Origin: Zoroaster sp. YZ-2022
Lineage: Eukaryota > Echinodermata > Asteroidea > Forcipulatida > Zoroasteridae
Direction: 5' to 3'
Assembly: GCA_029582265.1 (NCBI GenBank)
Contig: CM055816.1
Location: 90,983,204-91,047,203 of the forward strand
Length of the DNA stretch: 64,000 nucleotides
In this document: positions 3,106-48,940 of the stretch, piece after piece
Position numbering within the stretch: position 1 is the first letter of the stretch
Layout: the number at the start of each line of letters is the position of its first letter
Position numbers and translations under genes: made by a program
Notes under the pieces: generated by a model
Databases searched by the model: none
Told to the model about the DNA's origin: nothing
What the model saw: the letters and a program-made list of their open reading frames with translations, nothing else

Positions 3106-3407
3106 GTAAGATTTATGAATCGTCTAGCTTCTTGTTTTACGTAATTCTGATGTTTTGTATCATTTTCATGTTTTGGTTAGCTTACTTTGTAAATAAAGGG
3201 AATAATATTGGGCCTATAACTTTAAAGAATAATGTTTAGCAGAAGCTGTTCTATTATTTTAATAAGTAGCATGGGATGGGTTGTGCTAGATAAAAAAAAT
3301 TACTATTGACAGAGGAGAAGATAATAGTTTACCATCTTTATATCTTATTGGAAACTTACAGTATTAAAATCCTACTCAGTTTCAGTTTCATTTATTGTGA
3401 CAATCAG

Positions 3408-3615
3408 ATTCGCTTTAAGGTACTGGAGAAGCCTTACAACATCAGCTTTAAGCCTCAGAGTACATATCAGTCAGTAATCATACCACACCCAAGAATGCAA
3501 CATAATATCAATGGTTTGGAACCCTCGACAAAATACGAGTTTCTTCTGGCAGGTGTTAATGTTGCTGGTACAGGAGAGCAGGCCACTGTGGAGGCATTTA
3601 CATCAGTTGAAACAG
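3408..3615 (+). CDS. Fibronectin-III exon, second half (exon 3 in window)
   Basis: The acceptor is GACAATCAG and the donor GTAATG. It encodes the C-terminal strands of the domain begun in exon 2: IRFKVLEKPYN, then INGLEPSTKYEFLLAGVNVA with the fibronectin L-x-P-x-T-x-Y signature, then AGTGEQA. It ends with one leftover base, as exon 1 does. Whole domains are therefore bounded by phase-1 introns, the arrangement that allows domain shuffling in extracellular proteins. Confidence 0.78.
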
Positions 3616-18287: not shown

Positions 18288-18935
18288 TTAGGAAAGTTTT
18301 CGGAAGCACCATGTAACAAATCTCTAAAGTAGAGGTGTTGGCTCTGAGAAGAGCCGGTTTTGTTCTCAACGTTTCGGCAAGTATGCTCTGGCCGTCGTCA
18401 GGAGAATGGAGAGATGTGGAGAGTGGTGTCTTATATACACTGCTGGAGGATCCTGTTGTGGGCTGAACTGCTGTGATTGGTGCTCGCTGGAGTGTGTTGT
18501 GTGCTGGAACTCTTGTGATTGGTGCTCGCTGGGGTGTGTTGTCTGTGTGAGCCTGGTGTTCAGTGGAGTGTGTCAGTGCTGTGTTGCTGGTGGTGATGCC
18601 TGGTTGTGCTGAAGTGTTGTCTGCCAGATGCTGCTGATGTTGTATCCTATGTCTTGTGGTACTGTGTGATGTTTCTTGATTTCGATGGCTTCACGGATGC
18701 GTCGGTGATACCAATTCTTGACTGGTGCGATGTTCTCCCATTGGATGGTGTGATTGTTGCTGTACGCGTGTTTGATGATTGCTGACTTGTCTATTTCGCC
18801 TTTCCTGCCATGTGCTTTATGTTCCTTGAGTCTTGTTTGAAGGTCCCTGCCAGTCTCTCCGATGTAAACTTTACCGCATTCACAGGGGATGCGGTAAACA
18901 CCAGATCTACACAGCTGTTGGATTCTTTCTCAAAA
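18288..18935 (-). mobile_element. Penelope-like retroelement remnant: GIY-YIG endonuclease and tail
   Basis: Minus-strand translation of about 18640-18925 reads GVYRIPCECGKVYIGETGRD and then LQTRLKEHK, with a YSNNHTIQWENIAPV region and NWYHRRIREAIEIKKH after it. This is the GIY-YIG nuclease domain that follows the RT in Penelope-like elements: the GVY/VYIG pair, the Arg of GETGR, and the conserved EAIEI Glu. The RT is missing because the copy is 5-prime truncated near 18935. Downstream on the element strand comes the tail (GACGACGGCC...GCCGAAACGTT) shared with 4645-4870. Gypsy-1 inserted at the end of this tail. Terminal stops and cysteine-rich frames on the opposite strand are not genes. Confidence 0.85.
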
Positions 18936-19489: not shown

Positions 19490-20036
19490 TAAGTGTTGTA
19501 ATTTATAATGGCCGTAAGCGAGAGTATGAATTCCGTCCTGTAGTATATATCTCTTTGTATATCCAGCGGCGATAAGGATATTTATTGACGCGTGTCGTGT
19601 AAATGTTATGATTCTCATTTCTAATAAAATTCATAGAGTGGGAGAGCGTCTTATTTTGAGATAAAACTTGTTTGAAATGCTCGTGCATAATTTTCTTACT
19701 CAAGACAGACTTTTTCACGCCCTTGGCTTTAAAAAAAAAAAGATTCCTCATTCGATTAAAGTATCGAGTACATTTTTGGTCTGAGGCCAACAAATTCAGA
19801 GATAAGAGTTCCAGATGTCTCGTCTTTCATTTTACCTATAACCTTTTTATTCGCGTCGGAATAGAGAAAATGATTATTAGAATAATTTCTAAAATCGTAG
19901 AGATGCTCGTTTTCTGACATGTCCTCGTAAATATTTTCCGTTTGAATATTGAGTAATAAGCTGTCCGTATCCGTGTAAAGTAGATTGCATCCGTCGCTGT
20001 ACTTGCTTTTTAAATGATTGTAATAAAAATCGTACA
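19490..20036 (-). pseudogene. Polinton-1 polymerase: motif C and C-terminus
   Basis: Starting at the left TTAA of the Kolobok-like insertion, the frame reads MYDFYYNHLKSKYSDG and then LLYTDTDSLLLNIQT. Y-x-D-T-D-S is palm motif C with the two metal-binding aspartates. It continues through IYEDMSENEHLYDFRNYS and GLRPKMYSI. After a frameshift near 19760, KAKGVKKSVLSKKIMHEHFK and VNKYPYRRWIY follow, the thumb and C-terminal region of Polinton polymerases. A typical LAYGHY-like end falls near 19495 after one more shift. Confidence 0.88.
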
Positions 20037-20040
20037 TTAA

Positions 20041-20055
20041 AGACGGACTACAACG
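20041..20055 (+). repeat. Left terminal inverted repeat of the Kolobok-like element
   Basis: AGACGGACTACAACG directly follows TTAA. It matches the right terminus at 13 of 15 positions; the mismatches are the fourth and fifth bases. Confidence 0.85.
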
Positions 20056-20436
20056 CGAACTCTCACATTAAATTGACTATCGAACCTTGTTTATGTTGTG
20101 TTCAGGTAACAATTTATTGTTGTGGTCATGTTTTTCTCTTTATAATTTTGTTGCAATTTGACCGAAAAAATTAGACCCCGCTTCTTCGATTTTGAAATTT
20201 CCCGCCCCTGCACTGGTTCCCGACAAAGACCCATTGAAAATCCACTATGAAATCCACGATATAGTACCAGCGGAATTGTAAACCAGCGAAAAGGGATGAC
20301 GTATAACCCATGAGCACCGAGAGTAAACAGAAGACGCCATGTTACTTCCGTGTATATTATACATGCGTTTTCATGCGTCAGCAGAGGCATGAAGTTTTAT
20401 GAAGCTTTTTCGACGTTGTTGTGTAACAGTTATATA

Positions 20437-20655
20437 ATGCCGACTTCATGTGTTGTTGGTGGATGCACTAGAAATAGTATTAAGAATCCAGAGACTCATT
20501 TTTTTCAATTTCCGCGGGATCCTGCGATATCAAAGGAATGGGTGAAGTTCGTGAATAATACACGAAAGGATTTCACCTTCATGCCAAAATTCCTGGATCC
20601 GACCCTGCTGATATTTGCCTGTTTTTATCACTTTATCTGGCTCCCATGTATTTAA
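20437..20655 (+). CDS. THAP-type zinc-finger protein, short
   Basis: From the ATG at 20437 the frame encodes 72 residues and opens MPTSCVVGGCTRN, the standard THAP start. A full C2CH set is visible: Cys5, Cys10, Cys62 and His65 (C-x4-C-x51-C-x2-H, followed by Phe). The spacing is within the 35-53 range of the family, and the conserved HFFQFPRD and EWVKFV positions lie between. THAP domains bind DNA and form the N-terminus of Kolobok and P-element transposases. The frame stops six codons after the domain. Either this is a stand-alone binding domain or later exons were missed or lost. An in-frame Met 29 codons upstream exists, but the domain start favours 20437. It is 0.4 kb inside the left terminus and convergent with the ballast gene. 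Confidence 0.75.
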   Translation: MPTSCVVGGCTRNSIKNPETHFFQFPRDPAISKEWVKFVNNTRKDFTFMPKFLDPTLLIFACFYHFIWLPCI

Positions 20656-21551
20656 TCTTTTATAATCTTTGCTATTGTTACTTTAGGTTATTTTATTATA
20701 TTTAAAGGGCCTGGGAGCATTTTATTCAAATGGATTTGGTGCTATATACATGTCTTTTATATTTTTTATTAATATTTGATTGAAGACAGATGACATGGCC
20801 TGTACACATTTATTGTTATTCTATTCTTGTATTTTACAATTTATTGCCACTGTACACTCAGAACAAGTTTTAAGTTTTATAGGCAGAAGTACATGAGATT
20901 TACCAACATGAGATTTACAATATTAGTCTTTGTCACACTTCTCCCTTTTGTGATGCAAAGCCAAAAAACCTAATTGATCGAATTAGCTTTAATCCAAGAA
21001 AATCTGAACCTGCTCAGCAGTAGAGTTATGCTGATTGTAAGTTTTTTCCTGGGAAAAGAGCAGCAAGTGTGAAACGAATTTCAAAGGATTTCCAGTTCGG
21101 TTTAACAGAACAATGGCCAAGTTCCAAACAAGTATGTACAGGATTTTGATTAAGTTGTTTTCGTCATCAAGAGGCAACTTTTTTAATTTTGATATTTTAA
21201 CCTCAAAAATAAACTCAATTGTTGGTTGCAAATACATACATATTTTGTCTTGTCATTTATTCGAAAGTACTAAGGTCTTGTAAAATTTTCAGTTCTTGGC
21301 ATCTTTCTGCCATACCGAATTTGTAATGTTTTACCATAGTGTATTGTTGGCAACATAAAACAAGTTTATTTCACATTAGTGCTAAATTAATAAACTTCTC
21401 CCCCGAAAAGACACAAAATGAAATACACACGTAATTGATTCTGCCATTGATCATGGTTTATGAACGCACAAAATAATTTGTAAATCACTCAAGATCATTA
21501 TAACTAGGGAAGAATGTTACCAATTTAAAAAATAAAACAAAGCAAATCGGC
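20656..21551. other. Space between the convergent THAP and ballast genes
   Basis: AT-rich sequence with no catalytic transposase motif on either strand. It contains TTTATT at about 21256 and 21364, which read AATAAA on the minus strand and could serve as polyadenylation signals for the ballast gene. A minus frame at 20989-21237 shows no known domain. Confidence 0.5.
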
Positions 21552-21717
21552 CTAATCCAGTGGTGGATATGAAAATCCTTTGTACTGTCCATCAGGGTTT
21601 GGGAACGTCCTGCGGATTGCGTCCATTACACATGATGGCAGTGGCACCCGGTTGAAACGGCCAAGATAACCCCAACACCACCTCACCACTTGCCGATATG
21701 CAACATGGCGATATTTT
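21552..21717 (-). CDS. P2X7-ballast-like gene, exon 3
   Basis: The acceptor on the minus strand is a long T run followed by TACAG. The exon encodes KYRHVAYRQVVRWCWGYLG, then RVPLPSCVMDAIRRTFPNPD and GQYKGFSYPPLD, then stop TAG. The AYR, LPSC, IR-x-x-FP and GQY-x-GF motifs match the end of the cytoplasmic ballast domain of vertebrate P2X7 receptors and its invertebrate relatives (family knowledge). Exon lengths 281, 240 and 166 sum to 687, exactly 229 codons including stop. Confidence 0.85.
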
Positions 21718-22102
21718 CTGTAAAAAAAAAAAAAAAAGTCAGACCAAATTATAAACATAAGATTTGTGATTTGCATGGTGGAGTATCGATATTGTTTACG
21801 TTAACACCATGTGAAACTGAAATTCTATAAAACTATAACCATACCAAAAGGCAATCATGATCAAAAGTAAACAATTACATACATGTAATGCATGTACAAT
21901 AAGATATAGATGCACGTGGGTCAACCAAGGTCATATTCAGTTGTGTGCGGTTACTCTGAAGTAAACACCGGTGCTCATTCTGGTCAATCAAAAGTAATCT
22001 GCTTGATATGCAGATCATTCAAAACTGATATTGCTCTAAAATATTAATTGAAATTGATGGTACATTCGCTTTGTACATTCAGTCAACACTCAAATCACTT
22101 AC

Positions 22103-22342
22103 TGGTCAAGCGTTCCTTCAACTGCATCTCTGCCATAGTATGCTCTGTACTGAAGATTCGCTGTTGCAAGCACTCCTGGGTGGAGGCAGATCGCATCAAA
22201 CCAATCATGGATGGTAAGGCACTGGTTGGGATCATCCACGTTGATGTCCAGCTGCCGCATCATGTTCTCTGTCTTCTCAACTTCTTTGCAACATATACAG
22301 TTTGCGAGCAAAGGCTGAAGAACACAATGTCTACACGAACAC
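22103..22342 (-). CDS. P2X7-ballast-like gene, exon 2
   Basis: The acceptor is GTAATAG and the donor GTAAGT. Together with the last bases of exon 1 it opens with a D-W-C-x-C-x-x-C motif. It continues LANCICCKEVEKTENMM, carrying further cysteines that would bind zinc, then CLTIHDWFDAICLHPGVL and LQYRAYYG. This cysteine-rich block is the core of the ballast fold. Like the other exons it has no internal stop. The gene has no transmembrane segments, so it is not a P2X channel but a stand-alone ballast protein, probably soluble. Confidence 0.87.
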
Positions 22343-22874
22343 CTATTACAAAAAAAAAACAAGTTTGGAAAATATAATTTTAGTAACTTTGTCATTGGGG
22401 TTGCACTACTTAAAAATTGATCTTGAAATACATCCCCATGAACTGATCAAGGACAGGTACATCACGAAGGAATACATTTTCCATGGGCAGATCAAACATT
22501 TTTATTGTGCGGGGGCTACAACCTTTGATTTGAAGGGAAAGACTAAATGTCAATTATGCTTAAAGCATGATGGTAAAAGATCATGATTTTATTTGAATTT
22601 TGAGCAGTGATTACTTTCCCATCATGTCTTCATAAATACTGGCTAATATTGCCAACAAATCATAAAACGCAAGACATAGTAATTACCCCCAAATTTCCAC
22701 TGTACATGTATTGTACACATGTACATGTACTACTACATTATGTACCTTGGGTCTCCATCATGTTCGTTCATGTTTTTGTTAAGTATAGCCTACAACTATT
22801 TTTGTACAGCAGAAACGAATTGATCAAACGAACTTCATTCAGTATTTCATTCATGAATCATTTTGTGGGCTTAC

Positions 22875-23155
22875 CAGTCTGTGTTTAGCCGTCTATCATC
22901 AGGATTTGGTTCGTCGTCTTCGGCCTGACGATCACCGTCACCGGGCTGGTCAACTGCAGGCGCCGCAAGTGGCTCGAACCGGTATGGTTCAGCGCCACGT
23001 ACTTCGACTTCTTCGTCATCGTCTTCGCCTTCTCTCTCGTCTGGGGAGCTCCCCTCATCGCTAGAGCTGACATCACTATCCTCAGAAGTGCCTATATGAA
23101 ACTCCTCTTCCTTATCTATACTGTGATCTTCCCAATATTCGCTGCTATCGGACAT
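22875..23155 (-). CDS. P2X7-ballast-like gene, exon 1 with start codon
   Basis: The start is placed at MSDSSEYWEDHS (codon at 23153-23155). A longer frame upstream lacks similarity and crosses what should be 5-prime UTR. The exon encodes an acidic serine-rich leader (long Asp/Glu runs), then GAEPYRFEPLAAPA, the PY-x-FEP motif that precedes the cysteine block in invertebrate ballast proteins, and ends NTDW at the donor GTAAGC. The splice to exon 2 restores the W-C-x-C motif, which supports both borders. The predicted protein is 228 residues. The start codon is 333 bases inside the right terminus of the TTAA element. Confidence 0.82.
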
Positions 23156-23473
23156 TTTCGCTGTTTTTCGGTCTAGAAGATGTCGCTTGTCCGCTGTTGT
23201 TCCGCATTGCATGTATGGTAAATGCATACAGTACACGATCGACTGTTGTGCGTGGGGGTAACAAAGCGTCATGGGTGCTACGTCACACACGAAGTATGAA
23301 TTATTCATGAGTTGAGGGCTTTTGGTGAAACTGGGCTTTTCTGGGTCGTAGAACGCCGATCAAATTGATTTTTTTTTGCATGAAGGAACAAGTTTGATTG
23401 AATAATAATAATATGTTAGTAATCATTACACATTTCTCGAACGAAAACAGCAACACAGCACTTATCATTATTC

Positions 23474-23488
23474 CGTTGTAGTCAATCT
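23474..23488 (-). repeat. Right terminal inverted repeat of the Kolobok-like element
   Basis: CGTTGTAGTCAATCT, followed by TTAA at 23489-23492. Its reverse complement pairs with the left terminus at 20041-20055. Confidence 0.85.
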
Positions 23489-23492
23489 TTAA

Positions 23493-24819
23493 ATGTTTAG
23501 ATAAATCCGACGGATACCGGGCGGTCGAGTCTGATACTCATTTTGTGCATGTGAATAGCCGCCAGATTGTAATCATCAAAAATCTTGAAATTAGCAAAAG
23601 ATGGGTTCGCGGTTGCTTTACGGATACATTGTTCATCTTTTTCATCGTTACACTTCATTAGATTCACGTTGACTCGATTTCGTAAATTTTCCATCGTTTT
23701 TCCATAAACGGAATTATTCATGAGCTTGTACAAATCTTTTTCAAAATCTGACTCGGCATTTTTTCTCAAACTCGTATTTAAATCTATATAAGACTTCATC
23801 CACGGTTTTTGATTGAATTTTAAAACGCAAGGAATTTTCGTTAAATTCATACCGAGCGATAAATACAGTTGTAGATTGCCATAATGAAGGACCTATTTTA
23901 ATTTGTTATTCAAATTGGGATTTTTTTTTTTTTACTTGGGGGCGGGTCTGTCTTTCAATAGTTTAAGCTGCTAGGGAGACATCCATTCCTTGGGAATTTC
24001 CAACTTTTCTGGCGCGAGTGGAAATGCGTTGTGAAGATTGTGTAATTCTTTAGGATATTCAAGATCAACTTCTAAATTGTACCCCTTACTCGATTCTGGC
24101 GAGATTGATTCAAACCTCGTTGAAAGTATTTCATCTTCAGTTAACCATTCAAATTTTCCCGTTGGAAGGTATTGACTCATCGCCCACCCGTAAATGTTAT
24201 TCGCGTCGAGGTATAGGACGTAATTTTTAGGTTTAGATGGGTCGTAATTTGGGAGGTAGGGATTGTTTGCCTTGGCGTATCTCTCGCTCACCATCGACGT
24301 CCCTCCCCGTTTACCCTTTTCTATAAATAAATGCATGTCGTAATCCATCAACAACTCTAAACGCACGTTCGAATGTTTCAACAGAGCGTCTCAGCTCAAG
24401 CCGGGACCTGTGTAATAATGAGCGGGATCTAACCCGTACTGTTTCATGCAAGTTTTACGAAAAATTTCAAAGACGTCCGTTAATAATAAAGTATCCGTAC
24501 GAACATAGAGGTCGTGATAATCCCCTAGATTTTTATATTCAAACCTTTTCCAAACGTTCTGAGCGTGCAAATATTGCTCATCCGTAATGCCTTCATCGTT
24601 CAAACTACTATAAAATGCTTCTATAAAAGAAAATTATCCATGTACTCGTAGGGATAAATACCTTTATTTAAAAGAAGCTTAATCTTGTTTGGATTTGGTT
24701 CGTACTCTTTAGTGATTAGTAAAGAATCGGGTTTGTTTAATTTCACGAGTTTATCTAGTGAAGCCAGTAACAATTGAGCGCTGTCGATAAATCGTAGTTG
24801 CCCGATTGAAAAAGAAATA
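23493..24819 (-). pseudogene. Polinton-1 polymerase: exonuclease III motif, palm motifs A and B
   Basis: Reading right to left on the minus strand: a MEKY-adjacent segment near 24815, then ISFSIGQLRFIDSA, then YLHAQNVWKRFEYKNLGDYH and YVRTDTLLLTDVFEIFR (the Y-x-x-x-D exonuclease III type motif). Then PKNYVLYLDANNIYGWAM follows (palm motif A, D and Y-G), then FEKDLYKLMNNSVYGKTMEN (palm motif B, K-x6-Y-G). These motifs together identify the protein-primed family-B polymerase of Polintons. Frame changes at about 24385, 23880 and 24610 show decay. Confidence 0.9.
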
Positions 24820-35123: not shown

Positions 35124-36382
35124 ACAAGAGAAAGACCCTTCCCTTAAGCGCTGTAGAGAATTAGTTAATGAAAGAGAAGAGAAAATAACTAAAAGTGGAA
35201 ATATATCAAGTTTTCTTATTCAAAGGGGTATCATGTATCGAGAATTTTGCACTCCCAAAGTCGAACACAATAATGTTTTCCACCAAGTTGTTGTCCCTTT
35301 AAAATTTCGTTCACAAGTCATGAGGCAAGCTCACGAGTCTCTTCTTGGAGAACACCAAGGGGTACAGAAAACCACAGACAGAGTTATGACCAGTTTCTTC
35401 TGGCCTGGCATTCAGTCCGACATTAAACGCTTTATCCAATCATGTGACATATGCCAACGTACTTTTCCTAAAGGTCGAGTAACTCGAGTCCCACTTGGTA
35501 GTATGCCTCTCATAGAAACACTATTTCAGAGGGTGGCGGTAGATCTTGTTGGACCTATTTTTCCTTCTACAGATAAGGGCAATAGATATATCCTCACCAT
35601 TGTTGATTGTGCGACTAGATATCCCGAGGCAGTAGCGTTGAAGAACATCGAGACGATAACTGTAGCTGAGACACTAGTGGATGCTTTTAGTCGAGTCGGG
35701 GTTCCACGTGAAGATTTGAGTGACCAAGGAACCCAATTTACTTCAAATGTAATGAGGGAGGTAAGCCGGTTGCTTTCTATAAGGCAGTTAACAACAACGC
35801 CCTATCACCCAGCCTGTAATGGATTGGTAGAGAGGTTCAATGGCACACTGAAACAAATGTTAAGAAGGATGTCTGCTGAAAGACCTAAAGACTGGGACCG
35901 CTATCTTGGGGCATTATTGTTCGCCTACAGGGAAGCACCTCAGGCAAGCTTAGGATTTGCACCCTTTGAGTTGATTTATGGAAGTAGCGTGCGTGGTCCA
36001 ATGTCCATCCTTAAAGAACTGTGGACAGGTCGAGTTGAAGAGCCAGAAGTGAGAACAACCTACCAGTATGTCATAGATCTAAAGGAACGTTTAGAAAATA
36101 CATGTAAAGTTGCCCAAGAACAGCTTAAGAAAGCCACAGTACGACAGAAACAGTACTACAACAAGAAAAGTAAGGATCGAAGTTTCAGGGTCGGAGACGA
36201 TGTATTGTTACTGTTACCTACCGATAATAACAAACTTACAGTGGAAAGGCCCATTCCCAGTTATGGCCAAAGTCAGTGGTACGGATTACAAGATAGATAT
36301 CAATGGTAAAATTCGTACATTTCACGCTAACCTCCTGAAGCTTTATATTCACTGTAGTTCACAGGTGGAGAAACAGCATTAG
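35124..36382 (+). CDS. Gypsy-2 integrase
   Basis: The main frame starts by 35233 (MYREFCTPK) and 358 codons are open; in-frame coding continues upstream to 35125, where the Helentron cluster interrupts it. The zinc domain has His34, His41, Cys71 and Cys74. The catalytic triad is Asp104, Asp164 and Glu200, with the exact 35-residue spacing between the second and third acids, in VAVDLVGPIF, LSDQGTQFTS and NGLVERFNGT. A C-terminal strand KDRSFRVGDDVLLLLPTD follows. A shift near 36250 moves the end (RTFHANLLKLYI) to another frame. It joins element DNA to host DNA. All key residues are intact. Confidence 0.92.
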
Positions 36383-36662: not shown

Positions 36663-37973
36663 TCATCGCTCCAACTGCTCATTGTACCATTTGATAGCAG
36701 TCGGAATGAATGAACTGCCGTAACGGTGGGTCCTGATCCTTCTTTGTAAAAAGCGATGGCTCCTTGAATTGGTTTGGAATTCGGCATGTAATGGGTGACT
36801 TGAGTCAGCAAGAACAGATTCAATTCTATTGCACATAAGAGATTTGTATAATGCCTCTGGAGACTCTTGTTGCAGACCAATTACTTTACTGGCTTGTTTA
36901 ACAATTCTTTCCAATTTAATCCGGTCATTGGTCCGCATATTTCCAAAAACACAAACAAGACAAAAAGTTAGGATACTCTGTACAATAGACTGGTAGAACA
37001 ATTGTAAAATTGTCTTATCTACATAAAAAGAGTTGAGCTTGCAGAAAAATAAACGTTGTTGCAACTTACTATATTTAGATTTGGCACATGCATCAAATTT
37101 CAATTGGTTGTCAATTTCAACCCCAAGGTATTTGTAAACGGACACTGTTTCTACGCATTCATCTTTGATGACAACTGGCATAACAGGAGATTTCTTTTTC
37201 CTAAAGTCAAATACCATCTCTTTAGTTTTATTGACATTAATTTTTAGATAGTTATCATCACACCACTGAATAAAATGTGTCACCTTATGTGTAAAACGAT
37301 CCAGAGATTCTTGTTTTCCATCAAAAAGCCCAACAATAGCAGTGTCATCAGCATACTTAATGACTTTATGAGTCTGTTCTATAGTAGTTAGGTCATTGGT
37401 ATACAAAGTGTACAAGATGGGTGACAAAACACACCCCTGGGGGGCACCTGTGGAAGTATGTTGAACAGATGAAAGGGTGGAATTCACTTTAACACATTGA
37501 CTTCTGTTTAACATAAAATCATTAATCCATAAAATAAGTCTAGGGTTTACATTCAAATTGATGAGTTTTTGGGCCAGAAGATGGGGCTGAATGGTGTTAA
37601 AGGCGCTTTGAGAAATCCACAAAAGAACTTTAACAAAGGCACCTGCTTTCTCTAAGTGTTCAAAGATACCATTCAATAAAGTAAGTACAGCATCCTCAAC
37701 ACTCCTGTGAGGTCGGTAAGCAAACTGATATTTATCTAAGGATTCAGTGACATAAGGCAATAATCTATTCAAAATAATTTTTTCAAAACACTTCATCGGT
37801 ACCGATGTAAGAGCCACTGGGCGCAAATCATTCATCTCCTTAAAATGTCGTTTTTTAGGAACAGGTACAATCGTAGATTTTTTCCACAGTGCTGGAACAC
37901 AGGTATTATCAATCGAAGCTTGAAACAATGTTCTGAATGGACCGGCTAGTTGATCTGCACACACCTTTAACAT
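36663..37973 (-). CDS. LINE reverse transcriptase, long open frame with altered motif A
   Basis: 436 codons. Fingers motifs are KKSTIVPVPKK, LRPVALTSVPMKCFEKII and QFAYRPHRSVEDAV. Motif B is STGAPQGCVLSPILYTLYTN (about residues 174-193). Motif C is VIKYADDTAIV with the double Asp at 209-210. Downstream are YLKINVNKTKEMVFDFR and VYKYLGVEID. Motif A should read about x-D-F-S-S-A-F near residue 119-126 but reads LLWISQSAF, so the catalytic Asp is missing although the frame stays open. The C-terminus (RTHRYGSSFIPTAIKWYN) is complete. The start may lie upstream in another frame, at 38179-38469. Confidence 0.88.
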   Translation of the reverse strand: MLKVCADQLAGPFRTLFQASIDNTCVPALWKKSTIVPVPKKRHFKEMNDLRPVALTSVPMKCFEKIILNRLLPYVTESLDKYQFAYRPHRSVEDAVLTLLNGIFEHLEKAGAFVKVLLWISQSAFNTIQPHLLAQKLINLNVNPRLILWINDFMLNRSQCVKVNSTLSSVQHTSTGAPQGCVLSPILYTLYTNDLTTIEQTHKVIKYADDTAIVGLFDGKQESLDRFTHKVTHFIQWCDDNYLKINVNKTKEMVFDFRKKKSPVMPVVIKDECVETVSVYKYLGVEIDNQLKFDACAKSKYSKLQQRLFFCKLNSFYVDKTILQLFYQSIVQSILTFCLVCVFGNMRTNDRIKLERIVKQASKVIGLQQESPEALYKSLMCNRIESVLADSSHPLHAEFQTNSRSHRFLQRRIRTHRYGSSFIPTAIKWYNEQLER

Positions 37974-38178
37974 CTTAGAAGTGATAAAGTCAGGCCCATG
38001 AGTTTTGTAAGAATTTAGTTTCTTAAAAGATTACGAACTTCACGCTCAGAGACATGAATGTTTGTATTTTCTTTAAGGTTTTCCTGTATAGCGTTCATTA
38101 CTTCGCCCTGTTGTACACTGGAAATCAAATTTATCAAACCTACTATAAAAACAATTCAAGTTGTGAGCATATTGGGAT

Positions 38179-42140: not shown

Positions 42141-43500
42141 TTTAATTTCTTTGTGAATTAATAATAAATTAATACGAGTCATATCCGCAGGCTGCTCGCC
42201 TATCTCGGCAAACGTTTATAGCTATATCTTTTTTCCTCTACTTTTTTATGATTAATATTAAATTAATACGACGCATATATTTGCAGGCTGCTCGCTAAGT
42301 TGGTAAACTATGATTGATTTTTTCGTAACCACCAAAACGTTTATAGCCAACTCGTTTTTCTCTACTTTTGTAACTTGATTGATTGGAGTTGGAGCATCGA
42401 TCCCGTCAAAATTAAACCATCTTCCGACGGATATCTAGAAATTCTATCCGTATTTTTTATTCGCGGGGAAAGAGCAGAACGGCGCCCACCTCAAATAATC
42501 ATCATCCTTGTTTTAACGTTGATGCATGTTTTTTTGTCTCTTATATATTTTCGGTAGTTCCAGATAAGAGCCGCCTCTCAAAGGTTGATATCTCGCGATA
42601 AGTAATATGCATAACTACAACACGATCTATTATCCATCCAGAACCGTTGTGCGCATATTTTCTAAAGTTTCAACGTTTCCGCAAAGGCTGTGGTTAATTT
42701 ATCTTCAATTTCCGCTCGGATCGAGTAAAACGATGTAACCTTTATTATGAAAATGTGGAAAATCATATTCGGTCGTACCCATCGGGTTTCTCTTTATGCA
42801 ATTGAATCTCCAAATAGATCATAACTTTATCCCTCCAAATTCTCGCAAGTCGGAGGTTAACTTGTCGGTAATCTTTGACTTGACCGCGTCGAAAAGGTGT
42901 TTGGTCTTTTTTCCTTGCTATGACCGGAGTGGTACAGTCATATTTCGTTGCCTGGCAAACATTTTCCGCCACCAATAGGCGGTTCATCAAAGGACAACTC
43001 TTCTTCGGTTCTCACGAAACCTTTTAATGGCGGCTCTGCAGTCTCTTTTGATATGCCCCCTTCTCCCGCTGAAATGTTCCGGGTAGCAGAATATTTTCGC
43101 TCTACTAGCTCTTTAAGTTGAGACAATTTTAATTTATTCAATGGCGATGGTCTCTGTTGTCTTTGTATCTTGTATATTTTCCTTGCTATGACCGGTCGGT
43201 ATAGTAATTTTTTCGCTGTCGCAAATATTTTCCACCATCAATGGGTGGTTCATCAAAGCTCAACTCTGGTTCAACAATGGGTTGCTCTTCAAAGCTCAAC
43301 TCTGGTTCAACAATGGGTTTCTTCTTCGGGCTCTTGAAACCTTTTAATGGCGGCGATGTAAATCTTTTTATGTGTCCTCTTCTCACTCTGCTGTTCAAAT
43401 GCTCTGCAGGCGACATGCGGTTTGGGCGCATGCGCGAAATTTTGAGGGTCGCTACAAAATGCATATTCATAACGTGACCTTTACTTTTTTTTTTTCCGTC
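42140..43500 (-). pseudogene. Polinton-1 polymerase N-terminal region with duplicated SAP-like module
   Basis: Frames at 42938-43141 and 43186-43470 both carry the module PPLKGF...ELSFDEPPI-GGK. The first opens MNKLKLSQLKELVERKYSAT, resembling the SAP/Rho-N-type start of Polinton polymerases. QLHKEKPDG lies at about 42770-42800. 42140-42700 is frame-broken with a repeated TTAATACGA...CAGGCTGCTCGC segment (about 42172 and 42264). Confidence 0.6.
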
Positions 43501-44635
43501 GCGGAGTTCATTGATAAAACAACGTCGTTACATACTGAAAATTAATTTCAAAGAGAATTTTAACCAATAGGATTAGAAAGAATATGTCGTCTGCAAATAT
43601 TGAACTAACATTACAGCAATATGGGCAAACGCGCGAATTTCCTTGAAGTTTTTGTGCACAACTCTGGCTCCTTGACAAGAGCGCACACATGAAAAGGTAA
43701 TATTTCAAAGCGGATTTTCTTCCTGAAGATGAATTTTCCTTAGAGACATAAAAAAGTATGATAGGTGAAAGAACTCTTATTTTAACTAATTATTACTTTG
43801 TTATTTGAGCAAACCAGTAGCTAACTTTTAAACGGTGGGATTCCCTGCGGCTTTAGCGTTGTTAAACAAAAATATTTCTGGGGAACCCGTTACGGTTTTT
43901 GGATGACATCATTGTGTATGCGTGCGCGGCATATACACACACGGATTGATTGTGGGCGTTTTCATTGTAGGGGTTACAATTTTTTAAATAACGTTAGAAT
44001 ATTTAAAAAAAGGGGAATGATTTGAGTTTATAGTAATATGAACCAATATTTAATACATATATTCTCTTCACTCTTCATTTAAATTAATTTAAGATTTTCC
44101 CTTTCTATGCACTCAAATCCATTATTTAAACAGCGAAGATGTAATCAATGCAATGTCTTCACCTTTTGAATGCTGCCCAGAGGCCGTTACTTGGGTTTGC
44201 TCAGGTATAATCACCATGAAACTGTTCTTCGTGAGTTTAACTACCCTCCTATGCTTGATTTTTCAAGAAAAAATTCATGAAAGACGTACAATAACGTCAA
44301 AATGGACCAATAATTAGCTTATCTCGATCTGTAAAATTTAACGGAATATGCTCAATATTTGATGCACATTGAAGACGCTTTTTACACTTCGGGTTTCGAT
44401 GAATTCACCCAGAAACGTGTCATCTTGTAAAGCCATAACTGTAGATTGATGTGTGATCTCTGTTCATTGAGGTCATTTGGCATTTGCACTCACTTTGATC
44501 AATACACCTCCAGTCGACTTGCCAAATTTCAAAAGACGCGACCTTGTTTAAAGTTGGTGAAACAACACCAATAGAGGCGCCTTACAGAGCAGAAAAAGGC
44601 ACATGCGCGCAAACCGCTTGTCGCTCTGTGTGCAG
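43500..44635. other. No recognisable gene inside the Polinton-1 N-terminal region
   Basis: Sequence between duplicated Polinton modules, with no open frame of note. It may belong to the Polinton or to another insertion. Confidence 0.35.
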
Positions 44636-44887
44636 CGGTGCGCTGAAATGTTCGGGTAGCGGAATATGTTCCGCTTCTAAACGCTCTTTAAGTTGAGCCA
44701 ATTTTAATTTATACAATGGCGTTGGTCTCTGTTGTTTTTTGTATCTTTTTACCACGTTATAATAAGCCTCTTTTTTCTTTCTTACTCAATCCTCTCCAGC
44801 TCCACCGATAGTCCATGCTCTTTCGAAAAGTTCCCACAATTCGCCCACTGTCCACCTGGATAAATATTTATCGATCGTATTTACCAT
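44636..44887 (-). pseudogene. Polinton-1 polymerase start region
   Basis: A 33-residue frame at 44786-44887 (MVNTIDKYLSRWTVGELWEL, ending GGAGED) is followed after a stop by QRPTPLYKLKLAQLKERLEA-like coding at 44640-44770, a second copy of the SAP-like helix region. The Met at 44885-44887 is the most upstream plausible start of the gene. The segment upstream of it is tandemly repeated. Confidence 0.55.
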
Positions 44888-45130
44888 CCTACTAGATTTT
44901 ATTAAATTAAATTTCAATTTTATTTGGCGATTTTAAAAATCTTTTTTTTTTTGGATGGTTGGGGCGATTTATTTTTCACATAAATATTTATCCATCGTAT
45001 TTACCATCCTACTAGATTTTATTAAATTAAAATTTCAATATTATTTGGTGATTTTCTTTGGATGGGGCGATTTTATTAAATTAAAATTTCAATTTTATTT
45101 GCTGATTTTTCAAAATCTTTTTTTTTTTTG
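44860..45130. repeat. About 118-bp tandem repeat upstream of the Polinton-1 polymerase start
   Basis: TTTACCATCCTACTAGATTT and TTATTAAATTAAA-TTTCAAT plus GATTTT and a T run occur near 44880 and 44998, with a partial third unit from 45066. The repeat contains the putative start codon, so one initiation region has been copied. Confidence 0.8.
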
Positions 45131-46390
45131 ATGGTTGGGTGGTTTTGGGTGGTGAGCCAGGAGCGGCAGCATTTACCCCTACTACAGGGCATCTTTAAGT
45201 ATCCATGATCGCTTATTGCCCTGCTTCAGAAACTGCTGGACCATTTCGAAAAAATCACATCTGAAATCCATCAATTTTGAATATCCCTTTATTTATTTCT
45301 ATCCCAAGAAATATTAGGAGAATATTCTTACAGGAAAATTAAATTTTGTACAATGCATAACCAACCACTTGCCCTAATATATTTTATGTAGCCTTTTGAA
45401 ACAATGGTTGCATCAATGGGCAACTGTCTTGTAATTGTAACCAAAGATCTCCCTTTCTTTATAGCATGTTCAGAGCATTCTCTACAATGATCAGGTGTTT
45501 CATCTGTTTTGTGTTCTTTTCTGTTTCTCTGATGTTCTTGTTTTCCTTACGTTTACCAATACACGGTTTAGAGATGACTAACTCTTCTAGGAATACATTT
45601 ACACATATTGGATTAAGATAAATAAATGATCCCGTTTACTGATCCTTTCAAATCAGGTTTTATTTTCTATTGTCTATTGGTCATTCACATATGGTCTGCG
45701 TTTAGATGTTGTTGTTAGCATTCATGAAATCAAGCACCTTCTTGTTGATTAGATATTAATTTTTCCAATCAAGTTGAACAGAGTATGATAAGGGGTGACA
45801 TTCACTCATTTACAGTTTGAACTTTTCAACATACGACTTCATCCACCCAACATCATGTCCAGGATATCCCGAAAGCCCACTAGATATCCCCTATTCGTTG
45901 TCTCTGACTACCTTAGCAACCATCTTCCTAACTGATCAATCGCCTGAACTCGACTTCCCAACAGAATTTTCCTGCCATTTGGTTTAGAAGCTGAACATTT
46001 TCGAATTTACAAGACTCAGAACTAATAGAGTTAGTTTAATCTTGCCCTTATATGTAGCATATTTACACCAAAAGACTCCCAATGGGGAAAAATAGGCCAA
46101 GAAATAATTAGATTATAATCTATGATACAATATATTCCATGGTTTGTCAATAATTTACGATGAGGTTTTGGTTTGTACAATATTTATAATAAATTTGCAT
46201 TCATTATAACACAGTTTTCATACAGATTGTTATATACAAACTTAATTCTTGTTTCGATTTTCATTCCTACATAGCTGGTGGTCATTGGCAATCAGTGATC
46301 ATCATTAGATGAAATAAATCATTCAATTACAGGTTATCCTCAATGGCATATGGTATAGGCCTACTATACAGAGGTTAACCCTTTCATTAT
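45131..46390. other. No recognisable gene
   Basis: AT-rich sequence with short frames only. The end of it may be the beginning of the LINE fragment that follows. Confidence 0.4.
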
Positions 46391-47400
46391 AAATTTGTTT
46401 CAACAGGATGTCTCACTGGTTATTTGCTTTGGATTGACCACCACAGGTCTAAAATGTGTCCATTGGGGAGGCTGTCATTTTGATGTTTTTTCCGAGTTAG
46501 AAGGTCTAACTCAGTTCGTTTCAAATGGAGAAAATTGTACGCCTACTCACAACACGGACACTGTTTGGATCTTCTCATCATTCGCGAATACGTCTTTACT
46601 CTCAAATATTTGTATATTACCTGGACTATCATATCACTATGCTATAATGTGCAATTTGAATCTGAGAATCTAGATCTTCCCACTGTTATCAAAAGTCACT
46701 GATTTGAAAACAATTGATATCCAATTTTTCTGATGATGGCAATCTGCTCTGTCAACCGCTAATCTTGAAGACCATAGGATAGCTGTTGAAAATTATGAAT
46801 CATCTGTACGTAAAATTTGTGATAACATGCCTGTAAAATCAAAAACCATCAAATTAAGATTATCAAGTGCCTGGTTTACGAATAAAATTTCCGCCAGGAA
46901 ATTCGTCGCCAGGGTTGAAGAGGAGATGGATCCGATCGAAGCTTGAAATTGATAGACAAAGTACTGTAAACAACGTGGAATTGTAAATAAGTTGATTCAT
47001 CAAGCTAAGACAGACCACTATTCTGCAAGTTGACGACTGTTCAGGTGATCTGAAAACTCTTCAAAATTGTAAATAACATTGCATAAATCAAAGGAACCAA
47101 CGCTCCCCACCAGTGACTCTGACAAAAATCTGCGGAACATTTGCCAATTTCATTGTTGAGAAAATTTACAATATTCACAAATCTTTCCTACCAATTCCGT
47201 GATTCTTCTTTAACAACAAATGCCATAACTTTGAACACATCTATTTCTCTGTTTTAACCTGCAAGTGAAGAAGAAATCAGAAAGTCACCATCCAAATCGT
47301 GCGAACTTGATCCCAGCCTACTTTCTTGTATTGCTGTTTTTATACCGTATATCACCTTGATTGTAAAGTCTGCTTCATGGAATGTTTCTGACAGTTTGAA
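46391..47400 (+). mobile_element. CR1-type LINE fragment
   Basis: The + strand reads FGLTTTGLK, GLTQFVSNGENCTPTHNTDT and SNICILPGLSYHYAIMCNLN, the end of an apurinic-type endonuclease whose SDH has become SYH. After frame changes come VKSKTIKLRLSSAWFTNKIS and NKLIHQAKTDHYSAS, the connector to the RT in CR1 elements. It ends in an (AAT)n tract. The RT palm is absent, so the fragment is broken at both ends. Confidence 0.7.
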
Positions 47401-47401
47401 A

Positions 47402-47432
47402 ATATAATAATAATAATAATAATAATAATTTA
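47402..47432. repeat. (AAT)n microsatellite
   Basis: About ten ATA/AAT triplets at the end of the LINE fragment. Confidence 0.9.
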
Positions 47433-48345
47433 AACATTTACATGGAGATGATCAAAAGCGCATAACAATGACTTGAAACAGAGTTAAAACCAGACATGAA
47501 AGAAACACAAGATTTGTGAAAAAGTTTGAGATAAAGTCAGGTCACCGGGCAGAGCCCAAACCGCAGTATGGGGATACGTCTGTCCCGCCGGGGGATTAAT
47601 AATAATTACAAAGCCTACCCCTGCCGATTGTCCCGATAATGTCTCTCGATTTTTTCAGAGAGCAGACGCCTCTAACCCTACCCGGGTAATTTATACATGT
47701 CTAACTTACCTGACACGCGCTGAGAGTAGAAATATAGAGAGAGGCAATAAAATAATAATACATTTTAAATCTTACAATCACACATTAATTCACACCAAAA
47801 TTGCACCACGTATTAATTTACAGAATGCTTCATTCGTAAATAGAAAAGTTTAATCTTGTTTAAAAGTAGCAAGTCATGTTATTTTCTACGGCCATGTAAT
47901 ATAGCATGATACATTGTAACCATGGCTTAGGGGCTGCCACGGAAAACGCCCTATCTTAAGTGTGAGACAACATTTTACCGCTAGGATATTCCAAAAGGGT
48001 CATTTTCCCCTGACGCTTAAATGATATCTGGATTCACAGGAACATTGTGAAGATCCTGTAAGTACCTTGGAGAAAAGGCCAGAAGTTTTGAATATTAATA
48101 GGAATGATTTTTAGGAAATTAATCCTGTGCGAAACAGGCAGCCAGTGTAGATTGACGCGTAATATTGGTGTTATGTGTTTCAAACCGTGTTGTTATATGT
48201 AACATAGAGTCTATGCCCGCAAGCATTCTGGATTCCACTTTGCGTTTAGTTGTTGTGTCGTTTGTAGGCCGTACATTAAACTATTACAATAGTCCAGACG
48301 ACTGGTCACAAATGCATGAGTGAATATGTAACAAACAGGTTTGTT
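47433..48345 (-). mobile_element. LINE 3-prime fragment (CR1/L2 type)
   Basis: The minus strand at 47880-48340 encodes, with breaks, FVTSRLDYCNSLMYGLQ, HITPILRVNLHWLPVSHRIN and later FPWQPLSHGY, the conserved post-palm end of CR1/L2 ORF2 proteins (A-F-V-T-S-R-L-D-Y-C-N-S-L and L-H-W-L-P-V). 47433-47880 would be its 3-prime untranslated part. The RT palm is missing. Confidence 0.72.
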
Positions 48346-48940
48346 CATGGCTCACCTACTTAAAAAAAAATCCAATTTTTAAAAGGTGTTTTCCTTTTGG
48401 CTGACTATAATTAGGATAAAGTATAACGTCATAAATAATTTTTAATGACGTTATCGAAAATATTTTTAAGATTTGGCACAAAAATATGTTATGAGTATTA
48501 ATAAGTGGGGAGGTATGTATAATAAAAATTAAATATTTTATTTAAAAAATTGAATAAAAAACATTGGCTAAAACAAAATAATATATATCTAAGATTAATA
48601 GTAAAAGCGAAGGATGGAAGAAAGAAAATATTTATATCACTCAAATGTCAAAAAGAGAGAAATGAAAAGAGTACTCTGTGGAGGAAGAACACTTTAATTA
48701 AAATAATTTTTACGAAAATATGCAAGCAAGGGGTAAATAGATAAACAATGCTTATTACCTCGGCCTAAAATTTATTTGCGGCAATATAAATAACGCCATT
48801 GAAAAAATTAACGAGGGGTCAACTTGTTGCTGTAATAGAAAGCGGAATAGGTATTTCTTTAGTAGAGTTGGACGATTGCAGAATTGCTTAAAGAGTGTGG
48901 AGATTAGCGTAAGTGTGTTTAGAATTTGACGCAGGAGGTT
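48346..48940. other. Unassigned, AT-rich
   Basis: A lysine-rich + frame at 48550-48744 (64 codons) has no recognised domain. Polinton-2 coding begins after this stretch. Confidence 0.35.

Follow-up and report, generated by a model that had tools for sequence, protein, structure and literature searches.

A young KolX-keeping, nonautonomous derivative of a probable Kol0-lineage Kolobok transposon in the starfish Zoroaster

Kolobok transposons of the Kol0 (Kolobok0) lineage encode, besides a transposase, the accessory protein KolX, which resembles residues 476–595 of human P2X7 and has seven conserved cysteines (Kojima & Bao 2022, PMC9587614; this paper and the two cited below are used from the portions of their text at hand). 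The same paper gives 5'-RR/YY-3' termini as the mark of Kolobok, proposes that P2X7 originated when a P2X4-like gene fused with KolX, and regards zebrafish Nanor as probably a domesticated KolX. PMC6004289 reports both the THAP domain of Kolobok transposases and the combination of AG termini with a TTAA target, and free ballast proteins of invertebrates have been described (Rump et al. 2020, PMC7016195). Here we analyze a stretch of 64,000 nucleotides (the window) from the starfish Zoroaster sp. YZ-2022 (contig CM055816.1, positions 90,983,204–91,047,203 of the forward strand), which contains a 3,448-bp element at 20041–23488 bounded by TTAA on either side. We read it, at a probability of roughly 0.93, as a nonautonomous Kolobok copy of the Kol0 lineage that bears an internal deletion and lies in a polymerase gene; the longer form of this element carries a THAP transposase and a convergent KolX gene, and the deleted form has been amplified to hundreds of copies.

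The element shares the TTAA target, the 5'-RR/YY-3' termini and a KolX with ballast homology with the published Kol0 elements (PMC9587614). In contrast to these, it has lost its transposase from a point within the THAP domain, only KolX is complete, and no named Repbase family was matched. T2-MITE and XKol of Xenopus (PMC6004289) are likewise TTAA-targeted, with AG termini, a THAP transposase and short nonautonomous copies; unlike the element here, KolX and P2X occur 0 times in the text at hand of that paper. The cytoplasmic ballast of P2X7 (PF20478; PDB codes: 6u9v, 8tr5 and 9e3m) matches residues 89–225 of the encoded protein, including the cysteine motif, and supplies the best fold matches of a predicted model, whereas KolX here is a free-standing protein of 228 residues with an acidic N-terminus and lacks a P2X channel domain. 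NANOR-like and other free metazoan ballast proteins (PMC7016195) share the free ballast domain in invertebrates; transposons are not mentioned in the text at hand of that paper, where the string "transpos" occurs 0 times.

In the open-licence literature searched, KolX appears together with Kolobok only in PMC9587614. A preliminary description of this locus, made from the sequence, had proposed that the ballast protein is the cargo of, or is encoded by, a Kolobok-type element, and that such an element offered a mobile source for the domain later joined to P2X7. Both ideas are supported here, the first by many copies that share termini, TTAA, KolX and the THAP fragment. The central idea is correct and already in print, because PMC9587614 states the KolX origin of P2X7; the statement that no description of such a cargo was known therefore does not hold. 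With the KolX–P2X7 link published in 2022, what is new is one family with a young, nonautonomous, KolX-keeping derivative. A literature search turned up no title or abstract on a transposase-less derivative bearing KolX; Repbase entries lay outside its coverage.

The features of the element are as follows.

20037–20040, no strand: left TTAA target-site copy, read from the sequence
20041–20055, + strand: left terminal inverted repeat, starting 5'-AG (terminal comparison; the degenerate 15-mer matches at 1,080 places in the genome)
20440–20655, + strand: truncated THAP reading frame, the start of the transposase gene (PF05485, 9.4e-8, profile 1–58 of 87)
20572–20593, + strand: internal-deletion junction common to the 3.4-kb class (located by comparison with the longer L010 and L029; 280 exact matches in the genome, none for the control)
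21552–21717, − strand: KolX exon 3, containing the LPSC motif and the stop (Pfam and solved-structure sequence matches)
22103–22342, − strand: KolX exon 2, with zinc-cysteine motif WCxCxxC...CC...C (Pfam and solved-structure sequence matches)
22875–23155, − strand: KolX exon 1, with acidic N-terminus (PF20478 across the spliced protein)
23474–23488, − strand: right terminal inverted repeat, ending CT-3' (terminal comparison)
23489–23492, no strand: right TTAA target-site copy, read from the sequence

The TTAA on both sides and the 15-bp termini matching at 13 of 15 positions in inverted orientation, as first described, were confirmed (AGACGGACTACAACG / AGATTGACTACAACG). Within the window alone this match is within chance, as 4 of about 54,900 TTAA pairs spaced 0.5–10 kb reach 13/15, including the element's own. 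It is, however, beyond chance genome-wide: across the 616 contigs (1.0 Gb) of the assembly from which the window comes, the degenerate terminal 15-mer AGAYKGACTACAACG has 534 forward and 546 reverse exact matches (1,080), and the reversed control has 0 and 2.

The three KolX exons splice to an open frame of 228 amino acids, with GT...AG at both introns. The protein matches PF20478 (P2RX7_C, the P2X7 intracellular or ballast domain family) at 8e-17; among solved P2X7 chains it matches the ballast portion, at 5e-10 and over the residues given above. All the zinc cysteines of P2X7 (WCxCxxC, CC, C and LPSC) are kept, at positions 95, 97, 100, 111, 112, 135 and 203 as assigned by eye. PF20478 is the sole Pfam domain in the protein, where a P2X channel domain was not found, and the closest named homologues of the whole protein, from the starfish Patiria and Asterias, share 47–48% identity. 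An AlphaFold model of the Patiria protein (P0001) has low overall confidence (predicted local distance difference test score 58.7). Its top 14 matches in the PDB are all P2X7 (probability 1.00, E 0.004–0.02, template-modelling score to the query about 0.3), and no PDB fold match reaches E 0.001; the predicted fold appears to agree with the sequence match and adds little to it. The preliminary description had seen two convergent genes, THAP and an intact three-exon ballast gene. The ballast gene stands as described, whereas THAP is only a fragment, a convergent frame of 216 bp that covers the first two thirds of the domain.

Copies of the element were surveyed by pairing terminal repeats among the first 100 sites of the list (contig C1, 0.9–75.4 Mb). 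Seventy-four of these sites form 37 head-to-head pairs and 26 are unpaired; 18 pairs span 2.9–3.5 kb, 14 span 0.54–0.70 kb and 5 span 6.3–23 kb. The 18 pairs of 2.9–3.5 kb and the 5 longer pairs were read for the target site, and TTAA is found at both ends in 22 of the 23, the 23-kb pair (L034/L036) having TTAA and ATAA. Ahead of two unpaired sites (L038 and L040) stands GAAG instead of TTAA; neither is a terminus of this family. Sixteen of the 18 copies of 2.9–3.5 kb align end to end in one piece with the window copy at 92–97% identity, and the alignment of the other two (L024 and L026) falls into two pieces, at 96–97%. The two short loci that were read (L004 and L007) consist only of element bases 1–326 and 3236–3448 and contain neither gene, a form that resembles miniature inverted-repeat transposable elements (MITEs). 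In the longer copies L010, L029, L030–L031 and L032–L033, THAP and KolX sequences lie jointly between the same termini. Further copies with both termini, TTAA, ballast and THAP, which the preliminary description had anticipated, are thus many in this genome.

Several of the longer copies hold additional sequence. Unlike insertions of 5.9 and 6.3 kb occupy the same KolX intron at L030:799-6681 and L032:850-7161, the former being a long interspersed nuclear element (LINE)-like element with RVT_1. A 1.9-kb segment is common to L029:3371-5238 and L044:4949-6840 (88–90% identity) and holds, in L029, a C17orf113-type zinc-finger frame (zf-C17orf113).

Comparison with the longer copies reveals how the 3.4-kb class arose. 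In L010 and L029 the THAP sequence runs on to an RLKPGSIP box at the point where the window copy jumps, and open reading frames in L033 and L039 encode a near-complete THAP domain (PF05485 profile 1–86 of 87). The 22-bp string across the junction has 138 + 142 exact matches in the genome, the control having none, and the 20-bp undeleted string has 13 + 7. The junction is exact in 14 of the 18 copies of 2.9–3.5 kb, and L021, L022 and L024 align through it. One internal deletion founded the 3.4-kb class and removed most of the THAP-transposase gene. With 280 exact junctions against 20 undeleted strings, the commonest gene-bearing form by exact-match counts is therefore the derivative that has kept KolX but, after the internal deletion, has no transposase.

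Ballast genes travel with these termini. When the genome was searched with the KolX protein, 2,128 candidates arose, of which the top 150 were scored, a set in which more distant or older ballast genes would not show; these comprise 147 exon-1 and 3 exon-2 matches with 89–98% identity on C1–C22. In the surveyed stretch of C1 (about 75 Mb), a terminal repeat lies 333–340 bp upstream of the KolX start codon in 13 of 13 exon-1 matches, in line with the preliminary description, which had asked whether ballast loci are flanked by such termini. Of the two findings that it named as jointly refuting its view, one was made: termini without the ballast gene do occur, in the 14 of 37 pairs of 0.54–0.70 kb. 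The other, ballast loci without termini, was not seen among these scored matches (13/13). Among 47 exon-1 matches on C1–C4, the exact junction lies within 4 kb in 32 and the undeleted THAP within 15 kb in 2.

The age of the class and the state of its KolX genes were assessed in 23 aligned copies of the 3.4-kb type, the two most diverged of which (L015 and L043) were left out of the divergence and variant set. In the remaining 21, noncoding sequence diverges from the majority base by 0.5–1.8%; the 3.4-kb class is a young nonautonomous derivative that was amplified while keeping KolX. Within the KolX frame, nonsynonymous and synonymous variants number 54 and 18 when private and 16 and 3 when shared, against a neutral ratio of 3.28 and a nonsense fraction of 5% expected from the noncoding spectrum. 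In six long-form copies compared with the majority, 9 nonsynonymous and 4 synonymous variants occur in at least two copies, and 42 nonsynonymous, 12 synonymous and 3 nonsense variants are private. The mutations look neutral, and KolX in the 3.4-kb derivative seems to be a passenger.

The alternative that selection holds KolX in the 3.4-kb class, where it would give the derivative a transposition advantage, appears unlikely. It would account for the excess of KolX-bearing junctions (280) over undeleted THAP copies (20), for the KolX frame that stays open in the majority sequence, and for the lack of nonsense changes among the 91 KolX variants where about 5 are expected, which tells mildly against a passenger. 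However, the ratios of 54/18 and 16/3 compare with the neutral 3.28, KolX is free of indels and early stops in just 3 of the 23 copies (the window copy, L025 and L047), and the 0.5–0.7-kb pairs, which have no room for KolX, have spread too (14/37). One further copy, L014, has an open KolX with an in-frame insertion.

The TTAA target-site duplication of Kolobok is present in the window copy and in 22 of the 23 pairs read; the termini are AG...CT, that is 5'-RR...YY-3' with short inverted repeats (13/15); and a THAP domain lies in the transposase gene, partial in the window copy and complete in L033 and L039. The KolX of Kol0 elements is encoded, with PF20478 and the seven cysteines and, in many copies, between the termini; its identity follows the published description. 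Superfamily and Kol0 membership rest on TTAA, the RR termini, THAP and KolX because no DDE core was recognised in the copies read.

This gap is the first of several points that weigh against the assignment. The DDD/E core with C/DxxH expected of a Kolobok transposase was not found by Pfam in the four interior frames of the window copy, although Pfam may hold no Kolobok model, and a DDE-like frame was not recognised in the open-reading-frame lists of the longer copies L010, L029, L030–L036, L039 and L044, 10 frames of which were searched by Pfam. The extra stretches of these copies are LINE-like (RVT_1 in L030 and L034), a zf-C17orf113 frame (L029) and otherwise unassigned. The word THAP occurs 0 times in PMC9587614. 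In addition, 13 of the 47 exon-1 matches on C1–C4 have neither junction nor undeleted THAP at exact match and near distance, of which L042 and L049 are 3.4-kb-type copies by alignment, and the alignment of L026 breaks at the deletion junction.

Matches to PF20700 (Mutator) number 64 genome-wide. As the 20 undeleted THAP sites have none of them within 25 kb, Mutator was not taken as the missing transposase partner, though it may yet be that partner. Two on C18 are within 25 kb of KolX matches; these frames (C18:31094468-31094863, − strand, and C18:15272043-15272870, + strand) lie at a near-equal offset from KolX exon 1, on the KolX strand and past the expected end of a 3.4-kb copy, and may be a nested insertion copied along or a longer element.

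A piggyBac-type element that acquired a ballast gene would share the TTAA target, yet such an origin is very improbable: the termini here are AG...CT, of the Kolobok 5'-RR/YY-3' type and not the other-than-5'-RR kind of piggyBac; piggyBac versions are without most of the seven cysteines (PMC9587614), all of which are present; and THAP is a Kolobok transposase domain (PMC6004289). We give as little credence to a host ballast gene captured once as cargo beside an incidental THAP fragment, since four longer copies or copy pairs (L010, L029, L030–L031 and L032–L033) carry THAP and KolX between the same termini and Kol0 elements of other animals encode KolX (PMC9587614), even though KolX in the window is open while the transposase is gone.

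For the Kol0-lineage element, the structure, copy number, common deletion, TTAA sites and neutral-looking KolX mutations are observed and fit the following course. The longer form carries a THAP-type transposase gene (+ strand) and the convergent three-exon KolX (− strand). A single deletion took away the transposase gene from within the THAP domain onward and spared KolX and both ends, and the derivative then rose to hundreds of copies. Most likely, an autonomous relative would provide transposase in trans, and this enzyme would recognise the termini and cut and paste the element into TTAA. KolX would be a zinc-binding accessory of transposition, likewise supplied in trans, and in the derivative a passenger.

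The insertion site is a TTAA within a virus-like gene for a DNA polymerase, and this gene looks broken.

19756–20036, − strand: interrupted gene, downstream piece, with YTDTDS motif (open reading frame)
23497–23892, − strand: interrupted gene, upstream piece, DNA polymerase B of viral or organellar type (PF03175, 2.1e-8, profile 337–411)

A polymerase gene interrupted exactly at the element had been reported for this locus. The right flank bears this out, matching PF03175 (DNA_pol_B_2) in a Pfam profile search; the left flank has no above-cut-off Pfam match and only the YTDTDS motif, which we take to be motif C of PolB. No relative of KolX was found in viral contigs, where one polymerase piece has a single weak relative. 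A reading of the element as nested in a virus was dropped because the polymerase is only the insertion target.

Elsewhere in the window, a GIY-YIG endonuclease frame (PF01541) lies at 18573–18929 on the − strand and, we assume, possibly derives from a Penelope-like element. Integrase-like (35125–36309, + strand) and reverse-transcriptase-like (36663–38030, − strand) frames were judged by eye in the open-reading-frame list to belong to retrotransposons. Two other TTAA pairs with 15-bp termini of the TTTWTNCAATGGCG type matching at 13/15 (43129–48811 and 44704–48811) may represent a second TTAA-flanked family.

A ballast domain (PF20478) joined to an F-box-associated (FBA) domain (PF04300) is found in P0007 (Protopterus annectens, predicted, partial) and in P0015. 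PF20478 scores 1.6e-5 in P0015, above the cut-off, and 6e-4 in P0007, below it. Across 364 residues that take in the ballast part, the two proteins are 59% identical, and the seven cysteines are kept in both as judged by eye. Since these zinc cysteines are kept, the FBA–ballast fusion may be a third case, after P2X7 and Nanor, in which a host captured KolX; no paper on the fusion was found in the literature search. It suggests that host genes took up the KolX domain more often than in the two cases given in the text at hand of PMC9587614.

In this family the published connection of Kolobok transposons with the P2X7 ballast can be seen in a concrete case that is both young and abundant. Within the one family, copies with an open KolX frame occur next to deleted elements and short MITE-like forms, which makes the function of KolX testable. 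It is doubtful that KolX alone can suffice to favour spread, which would make the transposase-less, KolX-keeping derivative a helper-only transposon. If true, it would hint that the ballast fold of P2X7 began as a transposition cofactor, which acts either at the DNA or on the transposase belonging to the copy that encodes it.

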